The notes beneath the pieces were generated by a model that saw nothing but the letters and a program-made list of their open reading frames with translations, did no database searches and was not told the DNA's origin. From assembly GCF_000722875.1 (NCBI RefSeq), contig NZ_JFHR01000025.1:1-64000 (forward strand): DNA of 64,000 nt, written 5' to 3'. Each line of letters starts with the position of its first letter. Position 1 is the stretch's first letter. This DNA comes from Sphingobium chlorophenolicum. Lineage in GTDB: Bacteria > Pseudomonadota > Alphaproteobacteria > Sphingomonadales > Sphingomonadaceae. Shown one piece after another: positions 10,079 through 61,993 of this stretch. The position numbers were made by a program, and so were the translations under genes.

Positions 10079-10079
10079 G

Positions 10080-11482: not shown

Positions 11483-11489
11483 CGCCGCC

Positions 11490-32228: not shown

Positions 32229-34217
32229 TCACGAAATCCCCGGCCCACCACGTCCCCTGCCAATCGACCAGCTGATGCCGTCGCCACGCATCAATCCCGC
32301 GACCGATTTGCCGACCTGCTTCTCGAGCACCGGGCGCCACGGCACGAGCGTGAAATCCCGGGATCGCTCGATAAGCGCGAAGCGCCCGCTGACGAGGTCG
32401 ACCGACCGCCGATAGACGCCCTCTACCTTCGTGCCCTCGGTGGCTTCCCGGAACGGCATCTTGAGTTCCTCCGAGAGCTGCCCTGCGACCCGCAGCAGTT
32501 CTCGCCGCTGGAGCGCCGTGATCATGCCGCTCGGAAACGTCGTGCCGCTGCCCGTCTCTTCGGCAAATCCCTGCGCCACCAGCCACTGCCGCCGGCGTGC
32601 CTGGGCGTCGCGCAGATCATGCCCGAACCCGGCATCGCGGACGGACTCGGGCCCCCCCGCCATCAGCTCCCGATCGATCCAGGTCGCGGCGTCGGCCTCG
32701 ACCAGCCGATCGAGCGGCTGCGCCGACAGCGTGGTGATCGCCACTGGACGGTCGCGCAGCCGCGCTGCCTCATAGGCCGCCACGCGTTCGAGATGATCAG
32801 GCGCGATGATCCAGCGACCCGACGGCTCGCGCTCGACGATGCCCGCCGTCCGCCGCATTGCCTCGAGCCGGCGAACATGGGTTTCGGCAAAGGCTTGGGT
32901 CGCGGTCGGATCGTGGCGCAGATGGGCATCCACATCGTAGCGACCGTCATTGGCTGCAGCGATCTTGGCGACAGTGCGATCGAGTTCTCGAATCTCGGGC
33001 CGGATCGGCTCGATGCGCACGACGGAGGCATGGGTCAAAACCGCATCGGTCTCCGCACCCTTGCCGATCCCGACGTAATGGCTGCGCCCATCGACGCCAT
33101 CGACGATCAGGTACTGGCGATCGGCATGTTCGTCGGCGAGCCCGCGCACCAGCACCCGGCCGACAAGTGGGCGGGCATCGGGCGCGGCGGGATCGTAGAT
33201 CGCCTGGTCGGCCGCAGCGCGTTCGACCGCGGCGCGGGAAAATTTGCGCTGCATCGTGCGGATGATGTCGCCGCGCTCTCCCAGCGCGCGCAGCGTATCG
33301 GCAAGGTCGGGCGCGAGCCGGAAGCGGCCGGCGCCGAGAGGTTCGGCGAGGCCAAGGCGGGCCAGCTTCGCCAGCCGGCCGGCGCGCAGCGTCTGATCGA
33401 AAGTATCGCGGCCGTGGCTCGCCACCACCTGGTCGGCGTCCGCGCCCTTGAGCAAGGCCCGGTCGATCGAGGTCAGGCGCTCCTGCTCCACTTCGGCGCG
33501 CAACCCCTGCTGGATTTCACGGTGAGTACGCGGGCCGAGATCGAGATCGACCAGCTCGGCGGCGCGTTCGCGGATGCCGGTCGTCATATAGTCGCGGGCG
33601 ATGATCAGATCGGCGCCGCGCTCGTCCTTGCCGCGCACGACGATATGGGTGTGCGGGTGGCCGGTGTTGAAGTGGTCGACCGCGACCCAGTCGAGCCTGG
33701 TCCCGAGATCCTCTTCGAGCCGGTTCATCAGCCGCCGGGTCAGGGGTTTGAGATCGTCATATTGATCGCCGTCTTCCGGCGATACGATGAAGCGGAACTG
33801 GTGACGATCGCCTGCCCCGCGCTCGCCGAACGCCTTGCCGTCGACGGCATCGATATCGCGGCCGTAGAGTGCACCCCGCGTTCCATCGCGCGTGGTGCCG
33901 TCGCGCTGTAGATAGCGCAGGTGCGCGGCGGCAGCCGATGCCCCCTTGCCGGCAAGCTTGACGATGCTCGCCTTGACGATGACGCGGCGCCGGCTCGCAG
34001 CGCTATGGTCGCCGCGGCTGGCGAGCACGCGGCCGACGCCCGCGCCGCGACCGCTTCGACTGCCTGTGAAGCTGCCCCTGGCAAGGTTCGGTCCTGCCGC
34101 GCCGCTCCGGGCAAGATTGGCGGCCGCGAGCACGCGGCCGAGATAGCGCCGGGCGCGCTTGCCGCCCTGCTGGCGCTGGCGCCCGAGGCGCGGCTTGAAG
34201 CTGTCGTCGTCGGCCAT
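32229..34217 (-). CDS. rlxS: Relaxase of the MOBP/VirD2-like type with DUF3363
   Basis: 662 residues. The N-terminal domain carries ASAAAAHLRYLQRDG (Tyr likely to attack DNA) and the metal-binding histidines in VAVDHFNTGHPHTHIVVRGK, followed by DLIIARDYMTTGIRERAAEL and DLGPRTHREIQ. The rest is the DUF3363 region. It nicks oriT, stays bound to the 5' end and pilots the strand through TraG and the Trb channel. The gene block relaxase - unknown - transglycosylase - traF - small HTH matches the rlxS to rdfS region of the rhizobial symbiosis ICEs. A candidate nic site is 250 nt upstream. Confidence 0.93.
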   Translation of the reverse strand: MADDDSFKPRLGRQRQQGGKRARRYLGRVLAAANLARSGAAGPNLARGSFTGSRSGRGAGVGRVLASRGDHSAASRRRVIVKASIVKLAGKGASAAAAHLRYLQRDGTTRDGTRGALYGRDIDAVDGKAFGERGAGDRHQFRFIVSPEDGDQYDDLKPLTRRLMNRLEEDLGTRLDWVAVDHFNTGHPHTHIVVRGKDERGADLIIARDYMTTGIRERAAELVDLDLGPRTHREIQQGLRAEVEQERLTSIDRALLKGADADQVVASHGRDTFDQTLRAGRLAKLARLGLAEPLGAGRFRLAPDLADTLRALGERGDIIRTMQRKFSRAAVERAAADQAIYDPAAPDARPLVGRVLVRGLADEHADRQYLIVDGVDGRSHYVGIGKGAETDAVLTHASVVRIEPIRPEIRELDRTVAKIAAANDGRYDVDAHLRHDPTATQAFAETHVRRLEAMRRTAGIVEREPSGRWIIAPDHLERVAAYEAARLRDRPVAITTLSAQPLDRLVEADAATWIDRELMAGGPESVRDAGFGHDLRDAQARRRQWLVAQGFAEETGSGTTFPSGMITALQRRELLRVAGQLSEELKMPFREATEGTKVEGVYRRSVDLVSGRFALIERSRDFTLVPWRPVLEKQVGKSVAGLMRGDGISWSIGRGRGGPGIS

Positions 34218-35237: not shown

Positions 35238-35882
35238 TCAACGGGGTGCGCGGACCGCGAACAGGGTGTCTGGTGGCTCGCCCGGCGCGCGCGATAGTGA
35301 TGGATCGCTGGATTTCGCGCTGGTCCGAAGCGTGACGAACAATGGCGGTGGCAGCTGCTGCGCAGGGGATTGCGACGGACCTGGAGCCATGCCCGACACC
35401 TGCGCGAGATAGGCGCGCGTCTCGGCCGGCAGCGCACGGCCCGACGCGAGATATGCTGCATAGCGGCCGGGACCGGCATTATAGGCACCGAACAGCCCGG
35501 GATAACCGAAGCGGTCATACATCGCGCGCAGATAGGCGGTGCCCGCCAGGATATTGTCGCGCGGCTCATGCGGATTGTACCCGAGGCCGTGCGCCGCGCG
35601 CATCGCCGTCCAGGTCGCCGGCATCAGTTGCATCAGCCCCATCGCACCCGCCCGGCTCGTGATCGGCCGTCCGCCAAGCACGGTCATGCCGCCGCTTTCG
35701 GCGCGGATCACCCGCTCGATCCACGCCACCGGCACGCCGAACCGTGCGGACGCCTCGGCGATCTCGGCGCGCCAGCGCTGCACGAGATCGGCGCCTGATG
35801 AAGCGACTCTGGGCGGACCGGCCGCGGCGGGAGTCGCGACGAGCAGCGCGGCGGCGAGCGCGAACGTCCTTAGCGCAGCCAC
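35238..35882 (-). CDS. Lytic transglycosylase (VirB1-like)
   Basis: 214 residues. Signal peptide TFALAAALLVATPAAAG, then a goose-type lysozyme/SLT domain with the catalytic Glu in VIRAESGGM, GAMGLMQLMPATWTAM, NILAGTAYLRAMYDRFG and FGAYNAGPGRYAAYLASG. It cleaves peptidoglycan glycan strands to let the conjugation channel cross the wall. GTG 35882 gives the signal peptide and overlaps traF by 13 nt; longer frames add non-homologous sequence. Confidence 0.93.
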   Translation of the reverse strand: MAALRTFALAAALLVATPAAAGPPRVASSGADLVQRWRAEIAEASARFGVPVAWIERVIRAESGGMTVLGGRPITSRAGAMGLMQLMPATWTAMRAAHGLGYNPHEPRDNILAGTAYLRAMYDRFGYPGLFGAYNAGPGRYAAYLASGRALPAETRAYLAQVSGMAPGPSQSPAQQLPPPLFVTLRTSAKSSDPSLSRAPGEPPDTLFAVRAPR

Positions 35883-36454
35883 AGCGGGGTCGCCCTGCCG
35901 ATGACATCCTGCCGCGATGTCGGCCCGAAATAGCGCCCGTCGAACGAATCCGGGGTCTCGGTCATGAGCAGGAAGACCATGCCTGGGGCCAGCCGGATGC
36001 AGCCTTGCCAGGCAGGCAGCGGGCGACCCGCCGCGTCGGCATTGCGGCGCACCGCAACCGTCGTGCCGTTCACCAGCACGATGCGATCCACCGCGCACAC
36101 CATGTCGCCCGCGATGCCGGCGACGCGCTTCACCAGCGGCACGTTGCGGGGCAGATAATGGCGGCTCGCGGCCAGTTGCCGCGCTTCGGCCGGCGGCCAG
36201 GTGACCGCCATATCGCCGCGCTTGAGCGCCGCGCCGGGCGACACGGCGTAGAGGCCAATGGGCGCGCTGGCGCTCGCGTTCCAGACCAGCCGGGGCAGCG
36301 GCGGCAGCGCGATCGTGAGGCCGAGGCAGGCGATGCCGACGCCGAGCAGCGCGGCGCGACGGCGCAGCCGTAGGCGGCGTAGATGGGCCGCGCGCCGGAC
36401 CTCGAACCAGGCGAACAGCGGCAGCGGGCGGTCCCGGAAAGGAGGCTCAACCAT
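35870..36454 (-). CDS. traF: Conjugation signal peptidase TraF (S26 family)
   Basis: 194 residues. One N-terminal membrane helix (ALLGVGIACLGLTIALPPLP), then S26 boxes: ASAPIGLYAVSPGAALKRGD with the catalytic Ser context, YLPRNVPLVKRVAGIAGDMV with the catalytic Lys, FLLMTETPDSFDGRYFGPTS near the end. TraF matures the TrbC pilin (cyclisation in RP4). It overlaps the small HTH gene upstream by 8 nt and the transglycosylase gene downstream. Confidence 0.92.
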   Translation of the reverse strand: MVEPPFRDRPLPLFAWFEVRRAAHLRRLRLRRRAALLGVGIACLGLTIALPPLPRLVWNASASAPIGLYAVSPGAALKRGDMAVTWPPAEARQLAASRHYLPRNVPLVKRVAGIAGDMVCAVDRIVLVNGTTVAVRRNADAAGRPLPAWQGCIRLAPGMVFLLMTETPDSFDGRYFGPTSRQDVIGRATPLWLR

Positions 36455-36671
36455 GGTCGCCTCCGCGTGCGCGCGCCGCCGACCAAGCCTCGATATCGTC
36501 GATATGGTAGCGCCAGGTACGGCCATGCAGGCGGCATTTCGGCCCCTTGCCGGTCTGGCGCAGGCGCTTGAGCGTCGAATAGGCGAGGCCGAGATGAAAG
36601 GCCGCCTGCTTGGCGGTGAGGAAGGGGCAGGTCTCGCGCGCGGCCTGTGCGCGTGTCGCGGTATCGTCCAT
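36447..36671 (-). CDS. rdfS: RdfS-like recombination directionality factor (excisionase)
   Basis: 74 residues. CPFLTAKQAAFHLGLAYSTL followed by PKCRLHGRTWRYHIDDIEAW is an excisionase-type helix-turn-helix with wing. In ICEMlSym(R7A) the excisionase gene rdfS lies in the same conserved block with traF and the relaxase gene, and its product drives integrase-mediated excision. The position here, overlapping traF, is the same, so orthology is likely. ATG 36671 is preceded at 20 nt by a 7-3-7 inverted repeat, a candidate control site. Residual alternative: a transcription regulator only. Confidence 0.75.
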   Translation of the reverse strand: MDDTATRAQAARETCPFLTAKQAAFHLGLAYSTLKRLRQTGKGPKCRLHGRTWRYHIDDIEAWSAARARGGDHG

Positions 36672-36707: not shown

Positions 36708-36816
36708 CTGATGAGCCCGGATTGGATCGATCCGGCCGTCTTCGGCAGGGTCGCAAATCGACCCATGCGATTCCGACCCCCTTTGGTTGGCATTGGTGTT
36801 GCGGGCCGACGGCAAT

Positions 36817-44309: not shown

Positions 44310-45108
44310 TCAGGACTTTCGTCGCATCAGCTGCCGGTATCCACCGCGCGCCATGTCACGCGCCTCGCGCACCAGTCGCCGAACGCGCGAGCGCAGCGAA
44401 TCCGAGGCACCGCTCCATTCGTGCGCCGTGCGTTCCTCGCCGAATAGCATCGCGCCGATCTCCCGCTGGCTCGCACCTTCCCCGAGCGCGTCGTGCACGC
44501 GCAGCAGCTCGATCCCACGGTCGATCCGAGAGTCGCGGGGAAACAGCGATCGCGCGAACCGGCGATGCCGGCACAGGTCGAGCAGGCGGCGAAGCGGTAG
44601 CAGCCGGGTTTCGGCCAAGGCCAGTCCGCGCAGCCGATAATGGAGCAGGACGGCGTCCTGCCCGGCCAGGCGTCCCTCCTCGATGTCGAGCCGGATGTGA
44701 TGCCAGCCGTCGGACAGCACCGCATGCTCGTACCCAGCGGGATCGATGGCGATCGCCAGCCAGGGTGCGATTCCCGCGATATGGATGCTGTCGGGATCGG
44801 CCGGATCGGCGGGCAAGGCGACGACACCGATCGTCCCGGGGTCGAGATCGGCATGCCAGATGATCCGCGCCTCCGGGGCCGGGAGGCCGGGATGTTCCGC
44901 GAAAGTGCAGCCCCCAGGGCACGGGGGCGCCGGCGCTGCGGGTCGCGGTGCTGGCGCGTGTGTACCAGCCGACATAGCCGGGATCGCGGCGCAGCCATTC
45001 CCACATCAGCCCCGCGCGATCGATGCCGCGCAAGGCAGCATAGGGCGCCGGGTCGCGCCAGCCGGACCCCGGGCCGGGGGATCCTTGCCCATTCACGCGC
45101 GGTCCCAT
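44310..45108 (-). CDS. fseA: FseA-like excision activator (DUF6499 + DUF2285) made by +1 ribosomal frameshift
   Basis: Frame one starts at ATG 45108 and carries the DUF6499 part (YAALRGIDRAGLMWEWLRRD, PGYVGWYTRAS, PWGLHF). Homology then moves to the +1 frame (AEHPGLPAPEARIIWHADLD onward), which holds the DUF2285 C-terminus and stops at 44310. The switch falls on codon 69, at CAC-UUU-CGC: tRNA-Phe can slip from UUU to UUC. The fused product is 265 residues. In ICEMlSym(R7A) FseA is made by the same slip from two DUF2285-associated frames and activates rdfS. The luxR gene lies divergently upstream, as expected. Without slipping, frame one runs unrelated to 44356. Confidence 0.82.
44901..44904 (-). 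promoter_or_regulatory. +1 ribosomal frameshift site (UUUC)
   Basis: Minus-strand TTTC after CAC. The zero frame reads CAC-TTT-CGC and the +1 frame CAC-(T)TTC-GCG. Protein similarity crosses frames exactly here. A simple one-base insertion gives the same picture, but the match to the published tRNA-Phe UUU-to-UUC slip of fseA favours programmed frameshifting. Confidence 0.7.
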
Positions 45109-45341: not shown

Positions 45342-46115
45342 ATGGGCATGCACAACATGGCGACGCAGTTCATGCGCGTCGTCGAGGCCGTGGCGAATGC
45401 AGACGATCTCGCCGCCGCGATGACGGCGGTGACGGAGCAGCTCGGCTTCCAGTATTTCGCGCTGACGCACCATGTCGACATCATCGCGGCGAGTGGCAGC
45501 GCCATTCGCCTCCACAATTATCCGGCGCGCTGGGCCGACTATTATGATCGCAATGCGCTCGGCGTCTCCGATCCCGTCCACCGCGCCAGCCATATGACCA
45601 GCGTCGGCTTTCCCTGGTCGCGGATGTCCGACCTGATCCCGATGACCCGCGAGGACCACCGCGTGCTGGCGATGGGCCGCGACCAGGGCATCGGCGACGG
45701 ATTCACCGTGCCGGCGCATGTACCCGGGGAGGCGCGCGGCTCCTGTTCGTTCGCCAACGAGGCGGGCCGGCCGATGCCGAACGAGATGCTGCCGCTGGCG
45801 CAACTCGCGGGGATGTTCGCCTTCGAGGGCGCGCGGCGGCTCTGGGCGATGCGCGGAGGCCTTCAGATGCCGCCGCGGCCGGTCCTCACCGACCGCCAGC
45901 GCGACTGCGTGCTCTGGGTCGCGCGTGGCAAGAGCGACTGGGAGATCAGCCTCATCCTGGGCGTCGGCGAGGAGACGGTCGCCCGTCATATCAAGCAGGC
46001 CTGCGAGCGCTACGGCGTGAACAAGCGGACATATCTGGTGATCCTGACGCTCTTCGACGGAACGCTGACCTTCTCGGATATCTTTCGTCGCCGATATTAC
46101 CCTTTTCCGGAATAG
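45342..46115 (+). CDS. traR: LuxR-family quorum-sensing transcription activator
   Basis: 257 residues. Autoinducer-binding domain with the conserved Y/W/Y/D/W pattern: YPARWADYYDRNALGVSDPV then VGFPWSRM, and GFTVPAHVPGEARGSCSF. C-terminal LuxR helix-turn-helix: LTDRQRDCVLWVARGKSDWE, ISLILGVGEETVARHIKQAC, ERYGVNKRTYLVI. It should bind an acyl-homoserine lactone made by the neighbouring LuxI and activate transfer genes. ATG 45342 was chosen; ATGs at 45348 and 45357 are possible, and none has a strong ribosome binding site. Confidence 0.92.
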   Translation: MGMHNMATQFMRVVEAVANADDLAAAMTAVTEQLGFQYFALTHHVDIIAASGSAIRLHNYPARWADYYDRNALGVSDPVHRASHMTSVGFPWSRMSDLIPMTREDHRVLAMGRDQGIGDGFTVPAHVPGEARGSCSFANEAGRPMPNEMLPLAQLAGMFAFEGARRLWAMRGGLQMPPRPVLTDRQRDCVLWVARGKSDWEISLILGVGEETVARHIKQACERYGVNKRTYLVILTLFDGTLTFSDIFRRRYYPFPE

Positions 46116-46171: not shown

Positions 46172-46786
46172 ATGCTGCATGTTGTTCAATCCGCCGCGCG
46201 CCCGGAATCGGACGCGGTTCTTCGCGCAATGTTCGAGGCGCGCAAATCCGTCTTTGTCGACCTGCTCAAATGGGACGTTCCCGTCCTCGACGGCCGCTAT
46301 GAGGTCGACCAGTTCGACGATGTCCACGCCGCCTATCTGATCCTCGCCGAGCCGGACGGCGCCCATCTCGGATCCGCTCGGCTGTTGCCGACGATGCGGC
46401 CGCATATCCTCGACAGCTTCTATGCAGAACTGTGCGAGGAGGCTCCGCCGCAAAGCCCCGACACTTTCGAGATCACCCGCTTCTGCCTCGATCGTCGGCT
46501 GAGCGCGCGTGAGCGCCGCCAGGTGCGCGACACGCTGGTGACCGCACTGGCCGACCATGCACTGGCGACGGGCATCACTGCCTATAGCGCGATCGCGGAG
46601 ATGGGCTGGTGCCAGCAGATCCTCGCCTTTGGCTGGCGCTGCATGCCGCTCGGCCTTCCCAAGGTCATCGACGGCACGATGCTCGCGGCGCTTCGCATCG
46701 AGATCACGCCGGAGACCCCGGCGCTGCTCGCTGCCGGACGCATCACCGCGTCGGCCTTGCGCATCGACCAGCGCGTCGCGGCCTGA
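46172..46786 (+). CDS. traI: Acyl-homoserine-lactone synthase (LuxI family)
   Basis: 204 residues with AAGGAGG seven bases before the ATG. LuxI residues are present: FEARKSVFVDLLKWDVP (Arg, Phe, Trp), YEVDQFDDVHAAYLILAE (Asp/Glu), GSARLLPTMRPHIL (Arg) and FEITRFCLDRRLS (Glu, Arg). It makes an N-acyl homoserine lactone from SAM and acyl-ACP; chain length cannot be read here. It is 56 nt after luxR and leads the operon with phyH and gntR. Confidence 0.94.
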   Translation: MLHVVQSAARPESDAVLRAMFEARKSVFVDLLKWDVPVLDGRYEVDQFDDVHAAYLILAEPDGAHLGSARLLPTMRPHILDSFYAELCEEAPPQSPDTFEITRFCLDRRLSARERRQVRDTLVTALADHALATGITAYSAIAEMGWCQQILAFGWRCMPLGLPKVIDGTMLAALRIEITPETPALLAAGRITASALRIDQRVAA

Positions 46787-46804: not shown

Positions 46805-47698
46805 ATGACCGATACCCTCGATCTTTCTGGCGACCTCGCCGGCGCGGTCGCGCGCCGCACTGCCGAGCTCGCCGCACAGGGCTATTGCATCGTCGACGAT
46901 GCGCTGCCGCCTGCCATCGTCCGGGCGCTCGACGACGACCTCGCCGATCAGTTCACGCGCACGCCGTTCGGGCAAGGTGGATTCTACGGCACGACGACCA
47001 AGCGGTTCGGCCGGCTGCTCGTCCGATCGCGCCACGCCGCGGCTCTGGTCCAACATCGCCTCGTCCTTGGCATCGTCGAGGCGGTGCTGTCGCCCTGGTG
47101 CGACCATATCCAGCTCAACACGACGCAGGCGATCGCGGTCCATCCCGGCGCGCCCGCCCAGCTGCCGCACCGCGACCAGGACATGTGGCGCGGGCCGGTC
47201 GGCGAGATCGAATATCTCGTCAACGTGATGTGGCCGCTTACGCCCTTCACCCGCGACAATGGCGCGACGCTCGTATGGCCGCGCAGCCACGGTGCAAGGG
47301 CGCTCGACGCCGAACCCGAAGAACTGCCGTTCGCGGCCGGGATGGCGCCGGGCGCGGCGCTGGTCTTCCTCGGCTCGACCCTGCATGGCGCCGGCGCCAA
47401 CCGCACCGGGGCCGTGCGGCGCGGGCTGGTCGTCGGCTATTCGCTCGGCTGGCTCAAACCCTACGAGAACCAGTGGCTCGCCTATCCGCCGACGGTCGCG
47501 CGACATTTCCCACCGGAGCTGGCGGCGCTGGTCGGCTATCGCCAGCACCGTCCCAATCTCGGCAACTATGAAGGCCAGTGCCCCTCGGTCCTGCTCGGCG
47601 ACGATGCCGATCGGCCACTGGGCGCGATCGACGCGCTCCGCCCCGACCAGCAGGCCATGGTCGATGCCCATCTGGAAGCGCGGCGAGCCGCCTCATGA
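46805..47698 (+). CDS. Phytanoyl-CoA dioxygenase (PhyH) family protein
   Basis: 297 residues. A 2-oxoglutarate/Fe(II) oxygenase fold of PhyH type: AQLPHRDQDMWRGPVG gives H-x-D, GSTLHGAGANRTGAVRRGLV gives the distal His and the Arg that holds 2-oxoglutarate. GATLVWPRSH is a typical strand before it. It hydroxylates an unknown substrate. Lying 18 nt after luxI, it could alter the signal or its fatty-acid precursor; PhyH genes recur beside luxI in sphingomonads as I recall. The stop overlaps the gntR start by 3 nt. Confidence 0.88.
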   Translation: MTDTLDLSGDLAGAVARRTAELAAQGYCIVDDALPPAIVRALDDDLADQFTRTPFGQGGFYGTTTKRFGRLLVRSRHAAALVQHRLVLGIVEAVLSPWCDHIQLNTTQAIAVHPGAPAQLPHRDQDMWRGPVGEIEYLVNVMWPLTPFTRDNGATLVWPRSHGARALDAEPEELPFAAGMAPGAALVFLGSTLHGAGANRTGAVRRGLVVGYSLGWLKPYENQWLAYPPTVARHFPPELAALVGYRQHRPNLGNYEGQCPSVLLGDDADRPLGAIDALRPDQQAMVDAHLEARRAAS

Positions 47699-52758: not shown

Positions 52759-52890
52759 ATGGAACGCAACGACGAACGGCATGACGACCTGATCGACCTC
52801 GGCGCCGCCAGCACCGAGACCCAGGGCCGGCCCGGGCTTCAGCTCGAGTTCGGCGTGATCGCCCAGCCCATCGGCATCGAGGCCGAGTGA
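52759..52890 (+). CDS. Lasso peptide precursor
   Basis: 43 residues, absent from simple gene calls because it is so short. Leader is 22 residues with Thr at position -2 (STETQ before the core). The core starts with Gly23: ring region GRPGLQLE, then tail FGVIAQPIGIEAE (21 residues in all). Gly1 and Glu8 would form an 8-residue macrolactam ring. This follows the lasso rules (Gly at 1, acidic at 7-9, Thr at -2). Ribosome binding site GAGGAG. It is followed by a strong hairpin and the B/C genes. I do not recognise the sequence among lasso peptides I know. Confidence 0.88.
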   Translation: MERNDERHDDLIDLGAASTETQGRPGLQLEFGVIAQPIGIEAE

Positions 52891-52900
52891 TCCATCGGCG

Positions 52901-52928
52901 CGGGCGCGCCGCGCAGGCGGCGCGTCCG
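52901..52928 (+). promoter_or_regulatory. 12-bp hairpin between lasso precursor and B genes
   Basis: CGGGCGCGCCGC pairs with GCGGCGCGTCCG (52901-52912 with 52917-52928; one G-U pair) around a GCAG loop, starting 10 nt after the precursor stop and ending 11 nt before the B start. It probably lowers B/C expression and stabilises the precursor mRNA, as noted in other proteobacterial lasso operons. Confidence 0.65.
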
Positions 52929-52939
52929 CTCCATTCGCC

Positions 52940-53629
52940 ATGCAGCAGCGATACCGGATCACAGATGGAATCGGCTTCTGCCGGTTCGAGGGGCGCACGA
53001 TCGTCCTCGACATCGCAGCCGACCGCTATTGGCAACTCGGCGAGGATGCAGGCCGCGCCCTGGAGGCCGTACGTACCGGCACGACGGGCGGCATCGACGA
53101 AGGGGCGTTGGAGCGGCTGGTGACGCTCGGCTTTGTCGTCCCAACCAGCGAGGAGCCGGCAGCCATGGCGGGAAGCCTTGCCGCATCAATGGGCGACGCC
53201 CTGTCGCGGCCATCAAGAAGCGCGCTGGAGCAGGCCAGCCGGACGGGCGCCGGCTGGACGACGGCCTGCGAGGTCGCCGTACTCGCGATCGCGGCCCGCG
53301 TGGCACTGCGCAGGCTCGCATTGAAGACCATCCTGGACCGGCTGGCAGTCCGGCGCAGACGGAAGGCACCGGCTCTTCCCGCCACCAATCTCGAAATGCT
53401 CGCGCGGTGCTTTTGGCAGTACCGGCGCCTGGTTCCCTTGCGGCCGCTATGCCTGCCGGATTCGATCGCGTTCCTCTGGTTCGCCATGCGCCGCGGCCAT
53501 GCCCCGCGACTGGTGTTCGGCGTGGAGGCCTTCCCGTTCACCGCGCATTGCTGGGTGCAGGATGGCGACGTCGTCCTGACCGACGCGCTCGACCACGCCG
53601 GCCGCTTCACGCCGATCATGGTGCTGTGA
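52940..53629 (+). CDS. Lasso peptide biosynthesis B protein (RRE fused to leader peptidase)
   Basis: 229 residues. N-terminal PqqD-like leader-recognition element: YRITDGIGFCRFEGRTIVLD, IAADRYWQLGEDAGRALEAV. C-terminal transglutaminase-like Cys protease: LCLPDSIAFLWFAMRRGHAP (Cys about 171), FPFTAHCWVQDGDVVLTD (His about 203 and Asp). It binds and cleaves the leader so that the C protein can close the ring. B1 and B2 functions are fused, usual in proteobacteria. The TGA overlaps the GTG of the C gene. Confidence 0.9.
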   Translation: MQQRYRITDGIGFCRFEGRTIVLDIAADRYWQLGEDAGRALEAVRTGTTGGIDEGALERLVTLGFVVPTSEEPAAMAGSLAASMGDALSRPSRSALEQASRTGAGWTTACEVAVLAIAARVALRRLALKTILDRLAVRRRRKAPALPATNLEMLARCFWQYRRLVPLRPLCLPDSIAFLWFAMRRGHAPRLVFGVEAFPFTAHCWVQDGDVVLTDALDHAGRFTPIMVL

Positions 53630-55380
53630 CAGGCGATAGCTACCTGGCGATCGTCGCGCCCGCAGCCGATCCAGGAGAGGAACGGCGGATGGCGGAGCGC
53701 GCGGCGGAAAGACTTTCGCTGATCCCTGCGTTCCAATGCGACGGCCTAGTCGTTCTCGTCGATACCGCGACGCGCCATCGCCGGTTCGGCGAAGCGGGTA
53801 TCGCGATCGGCTCGACCATGGCCCGAAGTGGCGATGCCGACATTGCGGGCGGGGCCGATCAATGGGACGCATGCCGGTTCGCGGGCGCCTTCTGGGGCGA
53901 TCATGTCGCCTTCTTCCGGCAGCACGGCAGCGGCGAGATCTCGGTCATTCGCGCGGCATCGGGTCGCCTTGCGGCATTCCGGATGACGGTCGGCGAAATT
54001 ACGCTGGTCGCGTCGGAACCTGCCTTGCTGCTCGCGCTGACTGGCGCCGAGCCGCGTATCGACTGGCGCTTCGTCGCGCATCATCTTGCCTTCCCGCACC
54101 TGCGCTGCGGCGCGACCGGCCTCGCCGGCATCGACGAACTGTTCGCGGGCGACCGCACGATATTCGCCGGAACGGGCATGCGGCGTGAAGCGATCTGGAG
54201 TCCCTGGGACTTCGCGGCGGACGAGCGGCAGGTCGCGGACCTGGACGAAGCGCAGCATATGCTGCGAACCTCCGTCAACGAAGCGACCGCGGCGTTGGTG
54301 CGACCCTATCGCTCGGTCCTGCTGGAGCTGTCGGGCGGGCTGGATTCGTCGGTTCTCGCGGCGGCGCTCGCGGCCTGCGCCGCGCCTGCCACCGCGCTCA
54401 ACCTCGTCACGACGCGCGCCGAAGGCGACGAGCGGGACTATGCACGCGCCACCGCGGCGGCCACGGGCCTCGTACTTGCCGAACACAATGTCGAGGCCGA
54501 TGTCGACCTGACCCGCCCGGTGGCGTGCCGGTCGGCGCGGCCCGGCATTCCGCAGATCCTGGCGCCTGCCGACCGCCTGCTGGGCGACGCGGCGCGGGCG
54601 GACGGGGTGGAAGCCTTTGTCAGCGGGACCGGCGGCGACTGTGTGTTCTGCGCGCCGGGGTCGGCCGCGCCGGCCGCCGACGCGCTGCGCCTGTTCGGTC
54701 CCGGCCGCCGCTTCCTGCGCGCGGTACGTCACATTGCCGAAGTCCATGACACGAGCCTGTGGATCGCCGGCTCGATGGCGTGGCGACAGGCGCACCGGCC
54801 GCCGATCCACCGCGTCTGGCCGGGATCTGACGCCTTTCTCGCAAGGGACGTGCTGCCGCGCGAGCCCGATTTCCATCCCTGGCTGGTCGAGCCCGAAGAC
54901 GCGCTGCCCGGAAGGCGCAGCCATGTGCGCGCGGTCGTTGCGGCCTTCGCCCATCTCGACGGCTATGCGCGGCACGCCGTCGCCCCATCGCTTTTTCCGC
55001 TGCTGAGCCAGCCGGTGATGGAGAGCTGCTTCAGGATTCCGACCTGGATGTGGATCGACGGCGGACGCGACCGGGCAATCGCGCGCCAGGCGTTCAGCGA
55101 CGTGCTGCCGGCGAAAGTGATCGATCGCCGGTCGAAGGGCGGCATGGACGCCTATTGCCTGCGGAACTTCGAGGCCAACCGCGCGCGATTGGAGCCCTAT
55201 CTGCTCGAGGGGCATCTTGCCGGGGCCGGCCTGCTCGACCGGCCTGCCGTCGCCGCCTATCTCCGCCAGCCGGTGGGATCGCGTGATCCGCGCTTCTATC
55301 GCCTGTTGCCGATTATCGATGCCGAGGCCTGGGCGCGCGGCTGGCTCGGCCCGGAGCTTGGGCCGGCCGGAGGTCCATAG
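53626..55380 (+). CDS. Lasso cyclase C protein (asparagine synthetase-like)
   Basis: 584 residues, GTG start overlapping the B stop (GTGA). The N-terminal glutaminase-like domain lacks Cys2, as expected for lasso cyclases. The synthetase domain has the ATP-binding loop LLELSGGLDSSVLAAALAAC, VEAFVSGTGGDCVFC and, near the end, RSKGGMDAYCLRNF. It adenylates the Glu8 side chain and lets Gly1 attack to make the macrolactam. Its last 85 nt are antisense to the isopeptidase gene. No lasso ABC transporter (D) is nearby. Confidence 0.9.
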   Translation: MTGDSYLAIVAPAADPGEERRMAERAAERLSLIPAFQCDGLVVLVDTATRHRRFGEAGIAIGSTMARSGDADIAGGADQWDACRFAGAFWGDHVAFFRQHGSGEISVIRAASGRLAAFRMTVGEITLVASEPALLLALTGAEPRIDWRFVAHHLAFPHLRCGATGLAGIDELFAGDRTIFAGTGMRREAIWSPWDFAADERQVADLDEAQHMLRTSVNEATAALVRPYRSVLLELSGGLDSSVLAAALAACAAPATALNLVTTRAEGDERDYARATAAATGLVLAEHNVEADVDLTRPVACRSARPGIPQILAPADRLLGDAARADGVEAFVSGTGGDCVFCAPGSAAPAADALRLFGPGRRFLRAVRHIAEVHDTSLWIAGSMAWRQAHRPPIHRVWPGSDAFLARDVLPREPDFHPWLVEPEDALPGRRSHVRAVVAAFAHLDGYARHAVAPSLFPLLSQPVMESCFRIPTWMWIDGGRDRAIARQAFSDVLPAKVIDRRSKGGMDAYCLRNFEANRARLEPYLLEGHLAGAGLLDRPAVAAYLRQPVGSRDPRFYRLLPIIDAEAWARGWLGPELGPAGGP

Positions 55381-57404
55381 GCCTGCCAGCGGCGGTACTG
55401 CGCCGCCTTGGCAGGATCGGGGTCGATCCAGCCCTGCAGCCAGTAGCGGAACCAGTCGAGGTTGCGCGCATTTGCCGCGAGCTGGTGGCGCGGCTGCCAT
55501 TTGACATGCACCTCGTCGGGAAAGGCCCAGAGTTCGACCGGCTTGCCTGCCCGCTGGAGCCGCGCCAGCAGTTCGACATTGGGCCGATATTCCTGCTCGG
55601 GCAGCTGCATCAGGAGCGGCGCCTGGATCCGGTCGGCATTGAAGGCAGGCGACAGTTCGCGCCAGTCGCGACGGTCCTGGTCGGGATCGTCGATGCCCCA
55701 GCCCGATTTCAGCACTTCGGGGACTTCCCGACCCTTGACCGCGTTGAACCAGTAGTAGGTCGGGGTCAGCAGCACGTTCGCGATCGAGGTCGCCGCCAGC
55801 AGGCGGGAGTGCATCGCGATCCAGATCGTCGACTCGCCGCCAAAGCTGACCCCGCCCATGCCGACCTTCGTCCGGTCGATGATGCCGTCGTGGGCCAGCC
55901 GGTCGATCACTGCCGCGATGCCGGATTGGGCGATGCGGTAAGCGCCGACCTGGTCGCCGACCCCATCGGACGCGGGATAGCGGTTGATGCAGAGCGCGGC
56001 GATGCCGTGCCGGGCGAGTTCGCGCAGGGGGAATTCGTCGCCGAGGCCGCCGCGCAGATAGCCGCCGCACGAATAATAGGTGACGAACAGCGGTACCGGC
56101 CCCGTCACCCCATCCGGTCGCAGGAGCTGGCCGGTGAAGCGTCGGCCCGCACGATCCACCCAGCTGAAGGGACGGAATTTCGGCGCGGTATCGGCAAGCG
56201 CCGGGTTCGGATCGGCCAGCAGGCGGAGCTTGCCTGTATCAAGGTCTATCGCGACGAGGTGCGGCGGCACGTCTGCAGCCGCCGCAACGCACACTATGGT
56301 TCGGGTTCCGATGGCGCAGCCCTGCGTCTGGTCGCGACCACCGCCCAGCAGGCCTTGTCCGGTCGCGAGCGTGTCGACGGCGCCCGACTCCACGGTCCAG
56401 CGATGGAGGCTGGAGTTGCCACCGCCGTCACTCGTCTCGAACACCAGTGCATCGGCCTCCCGTTGCCACGTCACCGACCGGATGCGCTGCCCGGTGCAGG
56501 CTGCCGCGCCGCACGGGATCGCGCCCTGGACTCCCGAGCCCTGGACTCCCGAGCCCTTGGCGACCAGCAATTCATGGCGGGCGCCCGAGGAGAGGACATA
56601 GGCCGTGCCGCGCCCGTCGCCCGAGGCAACGCGCGCGACGAGGAACCGCCCATCCAGCTTGTCGAACGCCTGGGGCGCCGGCGCGAGCCGCGCCGCCTCC
56701 GCCGCCGTCGCATCGCGGGCCAGCCCCGAGGCGATGTCCACCGTCCGCACATGGGGCGCCTGGTCGGCCAGCAGCCCGGCATGGCCGAACCAGAAGCCCC
56801 CGAGCCGCTCGGTTGCCTGGCGTCCATCGATCCGGCCGCCGCGATAGAGCGGGCGGGAAGGATCGACCTTTGCGTCGATCAGCACGCCGTCGTCATGTTC
56901 CTTGTCCTCCGCGCGCACGATTTCGTCGCGCGAAGGCCCGACGCGGTAGGTGACGCTCCGGCCATCGGCCCCAAGCATCATGTCGGCGACGTTGCCCGGC
57001 TCGCTCGTGATGCGCGCAACGCCCGAGCCGTCGGCGGCCGCGCGCCAGACCTGCACCTCACCGTCGATGATCGCGCGATAGAGGATGTAGCGCGAATCCG
57101 CCGACCAGATCGGCGGCTCGGAAAGCAGGGTGCCGTTGAGCCAGTTGCCTTCGCCGGCATCGGCCAGCCGGCGCGGTGGTGTGCTGCCGTCGACCGGCAC
57201 GACGAACCAGGCGAGGTCGTGGGCATTGCGCTCGATAGAGGCGGCTTCCTCGCGGAACGCCACCATCCGGCCGTCTGGCGAGATCGCGACGCTGGAGAGG
57301 TCGGTGAGTTCGATCACCTCGCGCATCGATGGCGTGCGCTGGGCTTGGCTCACGTCGGGAAGGGCAAGAAGCGCGAAGAGGATCGACAGCCGCCGCTTCA
57401 CCAT
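55296..57404 (-). CDS. Lasso peptide isopeptidase (S9 prolyl-oligopeptidase-like)
   Basis: 702 residues. Signal-like N-terminus (RLSILFALLALPDVSQAQ), a beta-propeller-type N-terminal half, then an alpha/beta-hydrolase: VGMGGVSFGGESTIWIAMHS with the nucleophile Ser near 520, WAFPDEVHVKWQPRHQLAAN with the catalytic His. It matches AtxE-type enzymes that open the isopeptide bond of lasso peptides, allowing reuse or sensing. Convergent with the cyclase gene (85-nt overlap) and overlapping the TonB receptor gene by 7 nt. The C-terminal Pro/Ser-rich tail may be extended. Confidence 0.88.
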   Translation of the reverse strand: MVKRRLSILFALLALPDVSQAQRTPSMREVIELTDLSSVAISPDGRMVAFREEAASIERNAHDLAWFVVPVDGSTPPRRLADAGEGNWLNGTLLSEPPIWSADSRYILYRAIIDGEVQVWRAAADGSGVARITSEPGNVADMMLGADGRSVTYRVGPSRDEIVRAEDKEHDDGVLIDAKVDPSRPLYRGGRIDGRQATERLGGFWFGHAGLLADQAPHVRTVDIASGLARDATAAEAARLAPAPQAFDKLDGRFLVARVASGDGRGTAYVLSSGARHELLVAKGSGVQGSGVQGAIPCGAAACTGQRIRSVTWQREADALVFETSDGGGNSSLHRWTVESGAVDTLATGQGLLGGGRDQTQGCAIGTRTIVCVAAAADVPPHLVAIDLDTGKLRLLADPNPALADTAPKFRPFSWVDRAGRRFTGQLLRPDGVTGPVPLFVTYYSCGGYLRGGLGDEFPLRELARHGIAALCINRYPASDGVGDQVGAYRIAQSGIAAVIDRLAHDGIIDRTKVGMGGVSFGGESTIWIAMHSRLLAATSIANVLLTPTYYWFNAVKGREVPEVLKSGWGIDDPDQDRRDWRELSPAFNADRIQAPLLMQLPEQEYRPNVELLARLQRAGKPVELWAFPDEVHVKWQPRHQLAANARNLDWFRYWLQGWIDPDPAKAAQYRRWQAYGPPAGPSSGPSQPRAQASASIIGNRR

Positions 57405-60331
57405 GATTTCACCAGCTGGAAGGCGATCATGCGTCCGACGGGACTGGCATTTTCGGGGTCGAAGCCGGATGCCGAGAAGGGTGTGCGATTATTGACGTAG
57501 GGCGGCGCGCGATCGAACAGGTTGGTGATGCTGAGCGCCAGCCTGACGCCGTGCAGCGGTCCGCGATCTCCGCCGAGTTCGTAGCCAAGCTGGAGGTCCA
57601 GCGTTGTCCAGCTATGCACGCGCTCGGCCGACGTGACGCCGTTGTTCAGATAGCCATTGACGAAGTTGAGATAGGCGGCGGCGCTTGCCTTGCCGAGCGT
57701 GGCGGCGGCGCGGCCTCGCAGGCGCAAGTCGACCGGATTGCCGATGGTCGACACGACATCGGCGGAATCGGAGGTCGCGGTGATCCGCTGGGTGAGATTG
57801 AACAGCCAGGTGCCGCTCACGCCGAGTTCGAAGCTCCGGCCCTTCTCGCCGCCACGATATCCGATGTCGAAATCCAGCCCGCGTTCGGTCGTCCGGGACA
57901 GGTTCGCGTTGCGCCCGTCGACAAGCACCGTCACGGTCGAGGCGGGAATCCCATAAGGGTTCACGAAGGTCGGGTCCGCATAGAGCGCGGCGATCGTGGC
58001 GGCGGCGGGATTGTCGGTGATCAGCGACTGGAACCGGCTGCGCTGCGACAGGAACGAGAAGAGCTCGGCGGCGGGATTGTTGATGCGGTCGCGATAGGAA
58101 ATGTCGAAATAGGTGGCGCTGACCGAGAGGCCGGGGAAGCGTTGCGGGCGGAAGTCGAACCCGACGGTCCAGGTCCTGGCCTTTTCCGGGCCGATGTCGG
58201 GGCGGTTGCCGAACAGGGCGATCACGGTGCTGGTGCCCGTGGGCGAAGCGGGATCGGGGAGCGGCAGTGGGATGATCTGATTGAGACCCGGACCCTGCCG
58301 GACGTCGACAAAGCTCGGCGCGCGAAACGAGGTGCCGAACGTGCCGCGCACCGTCAGGGCCGGCACCGGCTTCCAACTCAGCCCGAGCTTGGGATTTGCG
58401 GTCGTCCCGACGTCGCTGTATCGCTCGGTACGCCCGGCGACCGACAGGTCGAGCCGGTCGATGCCGGGCACGTCTTGCTCCGGCGCGACCAGCGGTGCCA
58501 GCAGTTCGGCATAGCCGGCGACGATCGAACGACCAAGCGGGAAGCCCGCCGTTCCGCCGCTTACCGGTTGCGGCGTGAACTCGTCGTCGAACGACGAAAA
58601 GCCGTACCATTCGTGCCGGTACTCGCCGCCGATCGCCATCCGGACATCGCCTGCGGGAAGAGCGAACAGCGGCCCGTCGAACTTCAGCGAGGTCGACCAT
58701 TGCCGGGAGTGGCCGGTCTGGACGAAGCCGCCGCGCACGCGATCGATGGTCGCCGGATTGGTGACCGCGCCGTCGCCGAACAAATTGTACGAGCTGGCCG
58801 GATCAGGATCAGCAAGCGCGACTGCCAGCCGGTAGTAGTTGGGCACGTTATGCGTAGCCTGCCGCTCGCGCTGCTCGCCATAGGCGCCGTGAAGCTCGGC
58901 GGACCAGCGTCCGACCGCGGCTTCGAGAGTGGCAGCGCCCGCCCAGTTGGTGACATGGGCGTCGAGCGTCGGGGCGCCGAGGTCGGGCCTGAAGTCATAG
59001 TGGACGGTCACAGGCTGGCCGGTGCCGATCGGATCGACATAGAAGGGATTGGCCGGGGTGACGGTGACGCCGCCATAATTGCTGGGGAAGGTCCGGGCGG
59101 ACGACCGCCGGTCGGCGAAGAAACCCTGTGCCCGGAACTTGAAGCCGCCGCCCAGGTCCTGTTCGAGCGCGGCATAGGCGGAATGCCGGTTCAGCGCGGG
59201 CAGGATGTCGGTGTCGCGGCGCCCGTCGGCGAGATTGGCGACGCCGGGGGCGAGGTCGCCAGCGGCGAGATGGGTGCCGTCCTGGCCGCGCGGAATGCCG
59301 AAGACCTGGCCGTTGGCAGCAACGATCGTCCCCGGATTGGCATAGTCCTGCCGATAGTCGGGTCCACCCAAGGCGCGCAGATCCTCGGTCGCATAGGGCC
59401 GGTCCTTGGCTGCGAGCCGGCCGCGGCGGTAATATTCATAGCCGGCGATGAACCGGCCGCTTGCCCAATGGAAGCCGACGAGCTGGCTTGCCTGCACTTC
59501 GTCGAAGCCGTCGGCAAAGCCGTAGCGCAGCCGCGTCTCCGCCCCGTCGAGATCGCGGCGCAGACGGACATTGACCACGCCCGCGACCGCGTCCGACCCG
59601 TAGATCGCCGAGGCGCCATCCGCGAGCACCTCGATCCGCTCGATCACGCTCGAGGGGATCAGCGTCAGGTCGACGAAACTGCCGGAACCGCCGCCAAGCG
59701 GCGGGCGGTTTCCATCGACCAGCGTCAGCGTCGAGGTCGTGCCGAGCCCGCGCAGGTTGACGCCCGAGCCGAAGCCGAAATTGGTGCTACTGTTGTTGCG
59801 CACCGAGAAGCCGACCGTCCCCTCGTTCGCACCGCCGGCGAAGTTCTGGGGCAAGGCCGCGAGGATCTGCTGCGTCGTTGCATAGCCGCTGCGATCGATG
59901 TCCCTGCGATCGACCGTCACCAGGTTCGAGCCGACCGGGGCAGCACCGCGAATGCGGGTGCCGGTGACGACGATGTCCGCCTCGTCGCCCCGCGAGTCCG
60001 CGCGGCCGGCCGCCGGCCGCACCACGAAGCTGTCGCCGACGCGCTCGAAGGACAGGCCGGAGCCGGCGAGCAGCAGGCCAAGCGCCTCCTCGATCGTGTA
60101 GGAACCCCGGAGCGCCGGGGCCTCCCTGTCGCCGATCAGCGCCCCGTCGGCCAGGATGGTCCTGCCCGACAGGAGCGCGAGCGCCCGGAGCGAATCTCCC
60201 AACCGTTGCGCGGGAATATCCACGCCAAGCCGCCGGGACTCCTGTGCGTGCGCCTGCGACGCGCTCGCTACCAGCGCAACCGTGGCCATGCCCCCCAGCA
60301 GGTGCATTGCCGTCTCTTTGAATCGAACCAT
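57398..60331 (-). CDS. TonB-dependent receptor with STN signalling domain
   Basis: 977 residues. Signal peptide ends at AHA-QE. The STN domain follows at about 30-105 (GVDIPAQRLGDSLRALALLS, GSYTIEEALGLLLAGSGLSF), then plug (DIVVTGTRI, NLVTVDRRDIDRSGYATTQQ, IEVLADGASAIYGSDAVAGV) and a barrel ending in MIAFQLVKSW. STN transfers the ligand signal to FecR. The ligand is probably the lasso peptide (or its complex), taken up across the outer membrane for the isopeptidase. Gene order matches other sphingomonad lasso clusters. Confidence 0.93.
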   Translation of the reverse strand: MVRFKETAMHLLGGMATVALVASASQAHAQESRRLGVDIPAQRLGDSLRALALLSGRTILADGALIGDREAPALRGSYTIEEALGLLLAGSGLSFERVGDSFVVRPAAGRADSRGDEADIVVTGTRIRGAAPVGSNLVTVDRRDIDRSGYATTQQILAALPQNFAGGANEGTVGFSVRNNSSTNFGFGSGVNLRGLGTTSTLTLVDGNRPPLGGGSGSFVDLTLIPSSVIERIEVLADGASAIYGSDAVAGVVNVRLRRDLDGAETRLRYGFADGFDEVQASQLVGFHWASGRFIAGYEYYRRGRLAAKDRPYATEDLRALGGPDYRQDYANPGTIVAANGQVFGIPRGQDGTHLAAGDLAPGVANLADGRRDTDILPALNRHSAYAALEQDLGGGFKFRAQGFFADRRSSARTFPSNYGGVTVTPANPFYVDPIGTGQPVTVHYDFRPDLGAPTLDAHVTNWAGAATLEAAVGRWSAELHGAYGEQRERQATHNVPNYYRLAVALADPDPASSYNLFGDGAVTNPATIDRVRGGFVQTGHSRQWSTSLKFDGPLFALPAGDVRMAIGGEYRHEWYGFSSFDDEFTPQPVSGGTAGFPLGRSIVAGYAELLAPLVAPEQDVPGIDRLDLSVAGRTERYSDVGTTANPKLGLSWKPVPALTVRGTFGTSFRAPSFVDVRQGPGLNQIIPLPLPDPASPTGTSTVIALFGNRPDIGPEKARTWTVGFDFRPQRFPGLSVSATYFDISYRDRINNPAAELFSFLSQRSRFQSLITDNPAAATIAALYADPTFVNPYGIPASTVTVLVDGRNANLSRTTERGLDFDIGYRGGEKGRSFELGVSGTWLFNLTQRITATSDSADVVSTIGNPVDLRLRGRAAATLGKASAAAYLNFVNGYLNNGVTSAERVHSWTTLDLQLGYELGGDRGPLHGVRLALSITNLFDRAPPYVNNRTPFSASGFDPENASPVGRMIAFQLVKSW

Positions 60332-60410
60332 CGTCGTCTTTCTCCCCCTTGGCCGCCGGAGGGCGGGATGGGCGGGAGACGACGAAGGCGGGAATCACCC
60401 GCCAGATTTT

Positions 60411-61424
60411 TTATCGATTGGGAGGACCGGCTGTTGCTCGGGGCTCAAGGAGGATGACCGCCGGGTCCGAGCGATCGACGGCGAGGTCGAACATGGCAGC
60501 GGTGGCGCGCGCGAATTCCTCCGGGTCGCGCGACCGGAACGCGCCAGTCACCGACAGGCGCGCCAGGCGTTGGTCGGCAAGGCGTATCTGCGTCCCGTTG
60601 TAGCGGTTGATGGCGTTCACGGCGTCCCCGAGCGGCGTGGCGTCAAGCGCCAGCATGCCGGACACCCAGCGGGCCTGCGCCGCCGAGATTGGCTGGGGCG
60701 CGGATCGGTCGCCCAGCGCTATCCTCTCGCCGGCATCGAGTCTTCGCGACCGGACTGATGCCCCCGGCGCGGAACTGTGCAACTCGACGCTTCCTTCCCA
60801 TATGGCGACCGTCGACACACCTTCAGCGATGCTGACGTCGAACAGCGTGCCTCGGGCCACGACCTCGCCGCCTGGCACCGCGACGGTGAACGGAAGCCGA
60901 CGATCCGATATGACGCGGAAGCGGGCGCGTCCGCGCTCCAGCGCGATGCGCCGGTCACTGCCGGTCAGCACGACACGCAGGCGCGTCGCCGTGTCGAGCG
61001 TGATCCGGGAGCCATCGGCAAGGCGGATCGTGCGGATTTCGCCGACGCCAGTCTGGTAGACCGCGGCCTCGGCCGGCGAGACCAGCGCAAAGGGGCCGAT
61101 CTGCTGGACGACGCCTACCGTCGTCACGCCCAGGACGGCCGCCAGGGCAAGGCCGGCGGCGCCGACATGCGTGCTACGGCGCATGAAAAAGGGCGCGCGG
61201 CCGAGCCCGCGGGACCGGCCGATAGCGCTGTCGGCGAGTAGCAGGCTGTCCCGCCAGCCGCGTTCCGCCTCGTCATAGGCCGTGCGATGCGCGGGATCGG
61301 CCTCGAGCCAGGCACGGAAGGCCCGTTCGACCTCCGGCCCGGCATTCCCCTGTCGCCGCGCCAGCCAGTCGCCCGCCGCATCATGCACGCGGGCGGGAGT
61401 CGTAGACCTGGGTGAGCCGGTCAT
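60411..61424 (-). CDS. fecR: FecR-like anti-sigma factor
   Basis: 337 residues. N-terminal cytoplasmic part with WLARRQGNAGPEVERAFRAW, LEADPAHRTAYDEAERGWRD (DUF4880-type), a membrane helix (AGLALAAVLGVTTVGVVQQI), then the FecR domain: YQTGVGEIRTIRLADGSRIT, LDTATRLRV, RGRARFRVISD, PFTVAVPGGEVVARGTLFDV. It senses the STN domain of the receptor and controls the sigma factor. Start overlaps fecI stop (ATGA). Confidence 0.93.
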   Translation of the reverse strand: MTGSPRSTTPARVHDAAGDWLARRQGNAGPEVERAFRAWLEADPAHRTAYDEAERGWRDSLLLADSAIGRSRGLGRAPFFMRRSTHVGAAGLALAAVLGVTTVGVVQQIGPFALVSPAEAAVYQTGVGEIRTIRLADGSRITLDTATRLRVVLTGSDRRIALERGRARFRVISDRRLPFTVAVPGGEVVARGTLFDVSIAEGVSTVAIWEGSVELHSSAPGASVRSRRLDAGERIALGDRSAPQPISAAQARWVSGMLALDATPLGDAVNAINRYNGTQIRLADQRLARLSVTGAFRSRDPEEFARATAAMFDLAVDRSDPAVILLEPRATAGPPNR

Positions 61425-61993
61425 GCGCGCAGGTGGCGCCCGAGCTGCTTGATCGCCCGGCTCATCTGCTTCTCGACACCCTTCACGCTCAATCCCGTCT
61501 TTTGTGCGATCTCGGCATAACTATAGCCGTCGAGGCGGCGCGCGAGAAATATTTGCCGCGTGAGCGGCTTGAGGCGAAGCACTGCCTGCTCGAGCCGGGC
61601 GAGCCTGTCGCGCGCCTCGAGCGCGGCGACCGGGTCACCACCGTGCAGCGCGACCTCTTCGATCGGGACATGGAGGTGCCTGCCCGTCCGCGCGCTCGAT
61701 CGTGCTTCGTCGCGGAGAAGATTGCGGGCGGCCTCGCGCAGATAGGTGCCGGGCGAGGCGATGGCGGCGGCCTGCTCTTCGGTCCTTGCGGCCATGCGCG
61801 TGAAAATCTGCTGGACGACGTCATCGGCATGGCCGGGCGGCGTGCGTGGCCCAAGGAAGCGCAACAGCCCCGGCCGTTCGGCCCGGTAGAGATCGGCGAG
61901 CCCGTCCGGCGATGCCGCGACGAGATCGTGGCCCGGCGGCAGCGGGTCGTCTTCGTCCAGCGGCAAGCGGGCGGTCCCTAGCGCCGACCGCAT
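61421..61993 (-). CDS. fecI: FecI-like ECF sigma factor
   Basis: 190 residues. Region 2 (LYRAERPGLLRFL, PGHADDVVQQIFTRMAARTE, GTYLREAARNLLRDEARSSA) and region 4 (LARLEQAVLRLKPLTRQIFL, LDGYSYAEIAQKTGLSVKGV, EKQMSRAIKQLGRHLRA). FecI sigmas transcribe the receptor operon when released by FecR. ATG 61993 was preferred because upstream frame sequence to 62140 has no family pattern. Confidence 0.9.
   Translation of the reverse strand: MRSALGTARLPLDEDDPLPPGHDLVAASPDGLADLYRAERPGLLRFLGPRTPPGHADDVVQQIFTRMAARTEEQAAAIASPGTYLREAARNLLRDEARSSARTGRHLHVPIEEVALHGGDPVAALEARDRLARLEQAVLRLKPLTRQIFLARRLDGYSYAEIAQKTGLSVKGVEKQMSRAIKQLGRHLRA

Follow-up and report, generated by a model that had tools for sequence, protein, structure and literature searches.

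The closest described counterpart of the locus analysed here is found on ICEMlSym(R7A) of Mesorhizobium japonicum. According to the available text of PMC11963761, TraR turns on fseA in R7A, FseA is made by a programmed frameshift, and FseA in turn switches on rdfS and the genes downstream of it, in an operon with the order rdfS-traF-msi107-rlxS. The FseA box, as described in the published text available, consists of two inverted hexamers 15 or 16 bp apart, 28 bp in all. The available parts of PMC10359603 report 4709 FseA homologues, about 61% of them split, with a conserved +1 site in alpha-, beta- and gammaproteobacteria, and state that Arg37 and Asp210 of R7A FseA are both required for activity. 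QseM, a lone DUF2285 protein, is no defining feature of FseA itself. The pairing of luxI with phyH in sphingomonads is also already known (PMC3704786 and PMC4288048, available parts).

We analysed a stretch of 64,000 nucleotides from Sphingobium chlorophenolicum (the window; positions are those of this stretch unless a contig is named). On the minus strand, a DUF6499 frame starting at 45108 and a DUF2285 frame ending at 44310 are offset by +1 (Table 1; the profiles PF20109 and PF10074 are now named Trans_reg_dom and RovC_DNA-bd). An earlier note on this DNA had described two such frames meeting at CAC-UUU-C, and had proposed an fseA-like gene with a 265-residue frameshift product, a LuxR neighbour and an rdfS-like gene. 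Its coordinates and codons were exact and both profiles matched, and the fseA identity and the +1 offset at UUU-C held across the homologues described below. Reading with one +1 step reproduced the 265 residues from ATG 45108 (261 from GTG 45096), luxR and also luxI adjoin fseA, and the rdfS-like gene matches R7A RdfS, with the operon order and a 28-bp inverted repeat alongside. The alignment with fseA homologues that the note had suggested as a check was equally favourable: the fused product aligned through the join, unbroken, with single-frame homologues, and its R41 and D206 were invariant in 18/18 rows (7 split, 11 single-frame). From the residue description in the available text of PMC10359603, we take R41 and D206 to be the counterparts of the essential Arg37-Asp210 pair. 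The DUF6499 motif of the window gene is MWEWLRRD (an AWEFLRRN-like motif is expected of FseA). No known RNA family reached its gathering score within the window. The predicted tryptic peptides at the junction are SAGAPVPWGLHFAEHPGLPAPEAR for the shifted and SAGAPVPWGLHFR for the unshifted product, and the two products are near in size (265 vs 250 residues). The sequence comparisons support the assignment of 44310-45108 as an fseA homologue in an element of the ICEMlSym(R7A) type. We put the probability at about 0.88 that one fseA-type activator gene is present here and that +1 ribosomal frameshifting at UUU-C is needed for its full product.

Table 1. Features of the window discussed in the text, with their positions, strands and the evidence for each.
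Feature	Position	Strand	Evidence
Putative fseA, 5' part, DUF6499 frame (0-frame)	44905..45108	-	PF20109 E 5.1e-14; aligned with single-frame homologues
Putative fseA starts	ATG 45108; alternative GTG 45096	-	
Putative slip region, UGG GGG CUG CAC UUU C	44901..44916	-	Sequence; homologue conservation
Elements of the slip region	SD-like UGGGGG 44916-44911; CAC 44907-44905; slippery UUU 44904-44902; C 44901	-	
Putative fseA, 3' part, middle and DUF2285 domains, +1 frame	44310..44903; stop 44310-44312	-	PF10074 E 2.1e-20
Unshifted 0-frame tail, 183 codons from CAC	44356..44901	-	pN/pS; relatives' tail lengths
luxR-type regulator, divergent from fseA	45342..46115	+	Autoind_bind E 1.2e-29, GerE E 1.5e-9
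luxI-type AHL synthase	46172..46786	+	Autoind_synth E 6.1e-23
phyH-type dioxygenase gene, beside luxI	46805..47698	+	PhyH E 7.1e-26
rdfS homologue (recombination directionality factor)	36447..36671	-	phmmer to PDB 8dgl RdfS E 1.5e-18; HTH_17
FseA-box-like inverted repeat GTCG-N20-CGAC, 28 bp	36750..36777; long form 36748-36779	-	Pattern search
traF-type signal peptidase	35870..36454	-	Peptidase_S26 E 5.2e-24; TraF_Ti E 3.1e-28, slightly below its cut-off
Lytic transglycosylase, proposed msi107 counterpart (by position only)	35238..35783	-	SLT E 1.5e-16
Relaxase, rlxS-like	32229..34217	-	DUF3363 E 9.6e-151
trb/virB-type conjugation genes and coupling protein	2039..13514	-	TrbI, TrbL, TrbC, VirB8, CagX, T4SS-DNA_transf
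Lasso-peptide genes	52759..55380	+	NF033522 E 5.2e-18, NF033537 E 7.1e-22 (NCBIfam); PF00733 E 3.4e-27
Lasso parts	Benenodin-type precursor 52759-52890; B protein 52940-53629; C protein (Asn synthase) 53626-55380	+	
S9 peptidase, TonB receptor, FecR and sigma factor genes, beside lasso genes	55296..61993	-	

The rdfS homologue lies about 8.4 kb from fseA on the same strand, and its product matches the sequence of 8dgl itself, which is the solved structure of R7A RdfS. The genes for rdfS, the S26 peptidase, the SLT protein and the DUF3363 relaxase follow each other in the published R7A order, in which the equivalence to msi107 is positional only, and a 119-aa gene without a Pfam match sits between the transglycosylase and relaxase genes. 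The FseA-box geometry is found upstream of rdfS as GTCG-N20-CGAC, a match judged by its geometry. The long form GGGTCG-N20-CGACCC occurs once in the window (0.03 expected), and the short form occurs 11 times vs 7.1 expected, i.e. it is common by chance. We took the upstream regions of 35 rdfS-like genes and dropped two identical ones. In 19 of the 33 distinct regions, GTCG-N19/20-CGAC started 95-123 bases before the matched part, vs 832 of 20000 random 250-base pieces (4.2%). The exact repeat was absent from 14/33 regions, including those of L188 (contig C62) and L010 (contig C52), the rdfS-like genes near the other two fseA copies of the same genome. The combination of luxR-luxI-phyH adjoining fseA with rdfS, S26 and SLT genes was also found at L189, L191, L192, L194 and the C62 copy.

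The gene architecture is observed; for slippage, DNA binding and excision we argue by analogy with R7A. Like TraR in R7A, LuxR and LuxI would activate transcription of fseA when cell density is high. Ribosomes would then translate the DUF6499 domain and reach the SD-like UGGGGG and the UUU, where a minority would slip one base forward from UUU to UUC and read on through the middle and DUF2285 domains. Homology and conservation point to a 265-residue activator as the product. In R7A, tRNA-Phe reportedly makes this +1 slip from UUU to UUC on the fseA message. By binding to the 28-bp inverted repeat upstream of rdfS, the 265-residue activator would induce the rdfS, traF, transglycosylase and relaxase genes. 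The integrase beside tRNA-Leu would then be expected to excise the element, and conjugation would follow. Only a minority of the ribosomes would slip, and therefore quorum sensing alone could not cheaply fire excision.

Such a frameshift-made activator might act on a target other than rdfS. RovC of Yersinia, which activates a type VI secretion system, was the sole sequence match of the fused product in the PDB up to E 1 (6xz5, E 6.6e-5). However, the same strand carries an rdfS gene with an FseA-box-like repeat at a distance of about 8 kb, and relatives keep this order, so we consider another target unlikely.

The intergenic region between fseA and luxR contained no convincing lux or tra box; a palindrome search and an alignment of 17 intergenic regions brought up only a CTTGAG-type motif, present twice. 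The sequence GGCTTGAG occurs twice upstream of luxR (45245-45252 and 45306-45313), 61 bases apart, and CTTGAG is present at the place of the second GGCTTGAG in 11/17 aligned regions, including that of the window (counted by eye). A search of the assembly at E up to 0.001 gave no lone DUF2285 antiactivator of the QseM type, although a diverged QseM could escape it. All three DUF2285 loci of the assembly are preceded by a DUF6499 stretch. The two further fseA copies among them (L003 on C62 and L001 on C52) have the same +1 offset and UUU-C. Besides the query itself, a DNA search of the genome with the window gene returned the C62 copy and, on C30, a match of 50 bases. The 5' part of the C52 copy (C52:35800) is matched by a fragment at the end of C49 (C49:41589), and the two hold complementary DUF6499 parts; this division is probably a contig break.

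PF20109 matched in 135/397 genomes of the same family and in 25/385 genomes drawn from the class, with the S. chlorophenolicum genome counted in both. Our fseA sample consisted of 147 records, 9 from this genome and 138 from other genomes (30 returned by the family search, 80 hand-picked from its 150 listed matches, and 28 from the class search). One record was dropped because it had no DUF6499 hit. Removal of 9 duplicates, 7 records whose N match was truncated and 1 that lacked a C half in place reduced the remaining 146 to 129 distinct loci. In these, 114 genes were split with a +1 offset, 15 were single-frame and none had another offset, a split fraction that is not a population estimate because the loci were partly hand-picked. 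A chance origin of the frame arrangement is excluded.

At the join, UUU was found in 111/114 split loci (followed by C in 107/114) vs 3/15 single-frame loci, and UUU makes up only 231 of the 770 Phe codons (30%) elsewhere in the split genes. UGGGGG was present in 92/114 split vs 5/15 single-frame homologues, and GGG was used at the Gly position in 92/114 split loci vs 270/1858 Gly codons elsewhere. CGA stands directly before UUU in 44/114 split homologues, which is 44/52 of those with Arg at this position, and it makes up 356/3639 (9.8%) of the Arg codons elsewhere in split genes. The p-values for these codon-use comparisons ignore the relatedness of the loci. CGA before the slippery UUU may take part in the slippage. 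The window has CAC (44905-44907) in place of CGA, the commonest codon there in homologues, and this counts against the frameshift explanation.

Alternatively, the two frames might encode separate proteins, a DUF6499 protein and a DUF2285 protein from an internal start (e.g. ATG 44975), the latter possibly a QseM-like antiactivator. The +1 frame is indeed open upstream of the join as far as ATG 44975, and the assembly yielded no separate QseM. However, internal initiation would leave the near-invariant UUU at the join unexplained, and no ATG, GTG or TTG follows in the +1 frame shortly after the SD-like UGGGGG. The unbroken alignment of the fused product with single-frame homologues also argues for one protein, and we regard two separate products as quite improbable.

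Purifying selection acts on each half of fseA in the frame that encodes it. In comparisons with six relatives, pN/pS was 0.32-0.47 for the N half and 0.24-0.60 for the C half in the +1 frame, vs 1.28-2.78 for the C half in the unshifted frame. From CAC, the unshifted frame is open for 183 codons in the window vs 3-98 in seven close relatives. In the window the stop of this frame comes after 543 bases, the second-longest distance in the 114 split loci (range 3-636 bases). The length of this frame (to 44356, 250 aa from ATG 45108), together with one other split locus (L069) in which it is longer still, might suggest that the unshifted product is the main functional one. On the short tails of the relatives and the pN/pS values above 1 in that frame we rejected this, and we give it hardly any weight. 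We read the long tail as an accident of high GC, and it is probably without function.

In a tree of 125 loci, built after four loci whose C half was short had been set aside, the split state is found throughout and requires at least four changes; this tree has no established root and several of its long branches were flagged. At two single-frame loci, L209 (genome G007) and L227 (genome G110), slip-site-like letters are still present near the join, as judged by eye. The FseC and PhyH matches of L209 are also broken, and therefore poor sequence is suggested there; the genome of L227 is 99% complete, and this locus may naturally be free of the frameshift. A one-base difference is enough to create or remove the frame break, and the letters of L209, which looks error-prone, and L227 resemble the split form minus one base, but the possibility that the break in the window is a sequencing error or a decaying gene is negligible and was rejected because of the independent copies with the same +1 offset (114/129 distinct loci, L003 and L001 among them), the selection on both halves and the distribution of the split state over the tree.

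An integrase gene (C25:64002-65180), which extends into the window, adjoins tRNA-Leu(CAG) (C25:65295-65381). The 3' end of this tRNA gene lies within a 48-bp direct repeat (C25:65270-65317 and C14:96997-97044, 97.9% identical), which recurs once in the genome, on C14, and no tRNA was found at the C14 copy. The C14 copy is a candidate att partner or a candidate trace of another element, and the genes flanking it are compatible with either side being the element. No exact overlap between the end of C14 and the start of C25 was found at the lengths tried. Contig C25 does not include the left end of the element. Between 15000 and 31852 the window has matches to SoFic, type II restriction, C5 methyltransferase, NERD helicase, DISARM-type DrmB and DrmA, and UvrD helicase, a defence cargo. 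At 49848-50722 an IrrE/M78 peptidase adjoins an HTH_3 repressor, a pair that we take to resemble ImmA/ImmR of other integrative elements.

LuxI matches were found in 122/397 same-family genomes. We examined 90 LuxI loci, partly hand-picked (30 returned, including the window, and 60 picked from 150 listed), with flanks of about 1.5 kb for the first 30 and about 3 kb for the others; these loci overlap the fseA sample widely, so that neither count is independent of the other. Half of the loci (45/90) had an fseA homologue within the flanks, of which 32 were split, 10 were single-frame and 3 comprised the N half only; the flanks of the other 45 had none. All 32 split copies near luxI have UUU at the join. 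A PhyH-type gene adjoins luxI in 78/90 loci, and fseA was in the flanks of 44/78 loci with PhyH vs 1/12 without it.

Lasso B2 genes were matched in 180/397 family genomes. At least 21 of the 150 listed B2 genes are less than 5 kb from a listed luxI, all on the same strand, at least 39 are within 20 kb of a listed luxI, and at least 16 are within 10 kb of a listed fseA, while the majority, among the matches listed, are not close to a listed luxI or fseA. The spacing from B2 to luxI is 2.5-3.1 kb on the same strand in at least 20 of the 150, a spacing that points to a single luxR-luxI-phyH-lasso unit in some members of the family. The S. chlorophenolicum genome has two lasso B2 genes, and they adjoin its two luxRI-fseA loci. 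The order luxR-luxI-phyH-lasso A-lasso B is found with clear precursor matches in the C62 copy, L235 and L245, and with weak ones (E 0.002-0.045) in L191, L193, L234 and L241. L231 has a lasso B gene near luxI-phyH and no precursor match, and the window has about 5 kb of other genes between phyH and the lasso genes. The C half of fseA was matched beside the unit in L009, L191, L193, L234 and L245, and was not matched there in L231, L235 and L241.

The association of luxI, fseA and lasso genes is one of neighbourhood, from which joint regulation is predicted at most. We tentatively propose, as a possibility that we hold to be less than even, that split fseA, luxR-luxI-phyH and a lasso operon form a recurrent conjugative-element cassette in sphingomonads. 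One AHL signal, perhaps tailored by PhyH, would then time both lasso release and frameshift-throttled excision and transfer, and much of the AHL signalling that is known in the family and so far lacks an explanation would be element-transfer signalling. If this proposal is true, such signalling would have been overlooked because split fseA is hard to annotate.

Two claims of the earlier note have to be narrowed. It had the element carrying the whole excision switch, which was an overstatement: fseA, LuxR/LuxI, rdfS and its operon are present, but no lone DUF2285 antiactivator was found in the assembly at E up to 0.001, and no conserved lux/tra box was recognised in the intergenic region. It also held that lasso and defence cargo under such a switch appears new. 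Since the mechanism and its wide distribution are published (PMC10359603, available text), the window gene adds to a known type and is not a new mechanism. Novelty may fit the lasso neighbourhood, which recurs in this and other genomes. We did not find the lasso-luxI-fseA order in print within the literature searched, and the part that is apparently unpublished is the recurrent order in some sphingomonads in which luxR-luxI-phyH adjoins split fseA and, in some cases, lasso-peptide genes come next.

Compared with FseA (Msi172-Msi171) of ICEMlSym(R7A), as described in the available parts of PMC10359603 and PMC11963761, the window gene shares the DUF6499 and DUF2285 domains joined by a +1 offset, the WGL/UGGGGG before the slip, a quorum-sensing neighbour and an rdfS gene with a 28-bp box or box-like repeat. 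It differs in its host lineage, in having LuxI followed by a PhyH-type gene, in that no QseM was found, and in an unshifted frame that stays open unusually far. The R7A rdfS-traF-msi107-rlxS operon resembles that of the window in the rdfS homologue, S26 peptidase, SLT and DUF3363 relaxase genes and their order, whereas the 119-aa gene is extra in the window. The window element is apparently integrated at tRNA-Leu and R7A at tRNA-Phe, and the cargo is a lasso-peptide cluster with DISARM-like and other defence genes in place of symbiosis genes. RovC of Yersinia belongs to the same family by sequence, but it governs a type VI secretion system, whereas the context of the window protein is a conjugative element. 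The published sphingomonad luxR-luxI-phyH neighbourhoods (PMC3704786 and PMC4288048) have the same gene order as the window, and the available parts of these accounts make no mention of an fseA-type gene; the main text of PMC4288048 does not contain the word DUF2285. With 45/90 luxI loci (partly hand-picked) near fseA, our comparison offers a concrete candidate role for many sphingomonad luxR-luxI-phyH operons, and it lends support to the idea that conjugative transfer is held back by a frameshift brake that is portable as a module, in this case alongside a different cargo.
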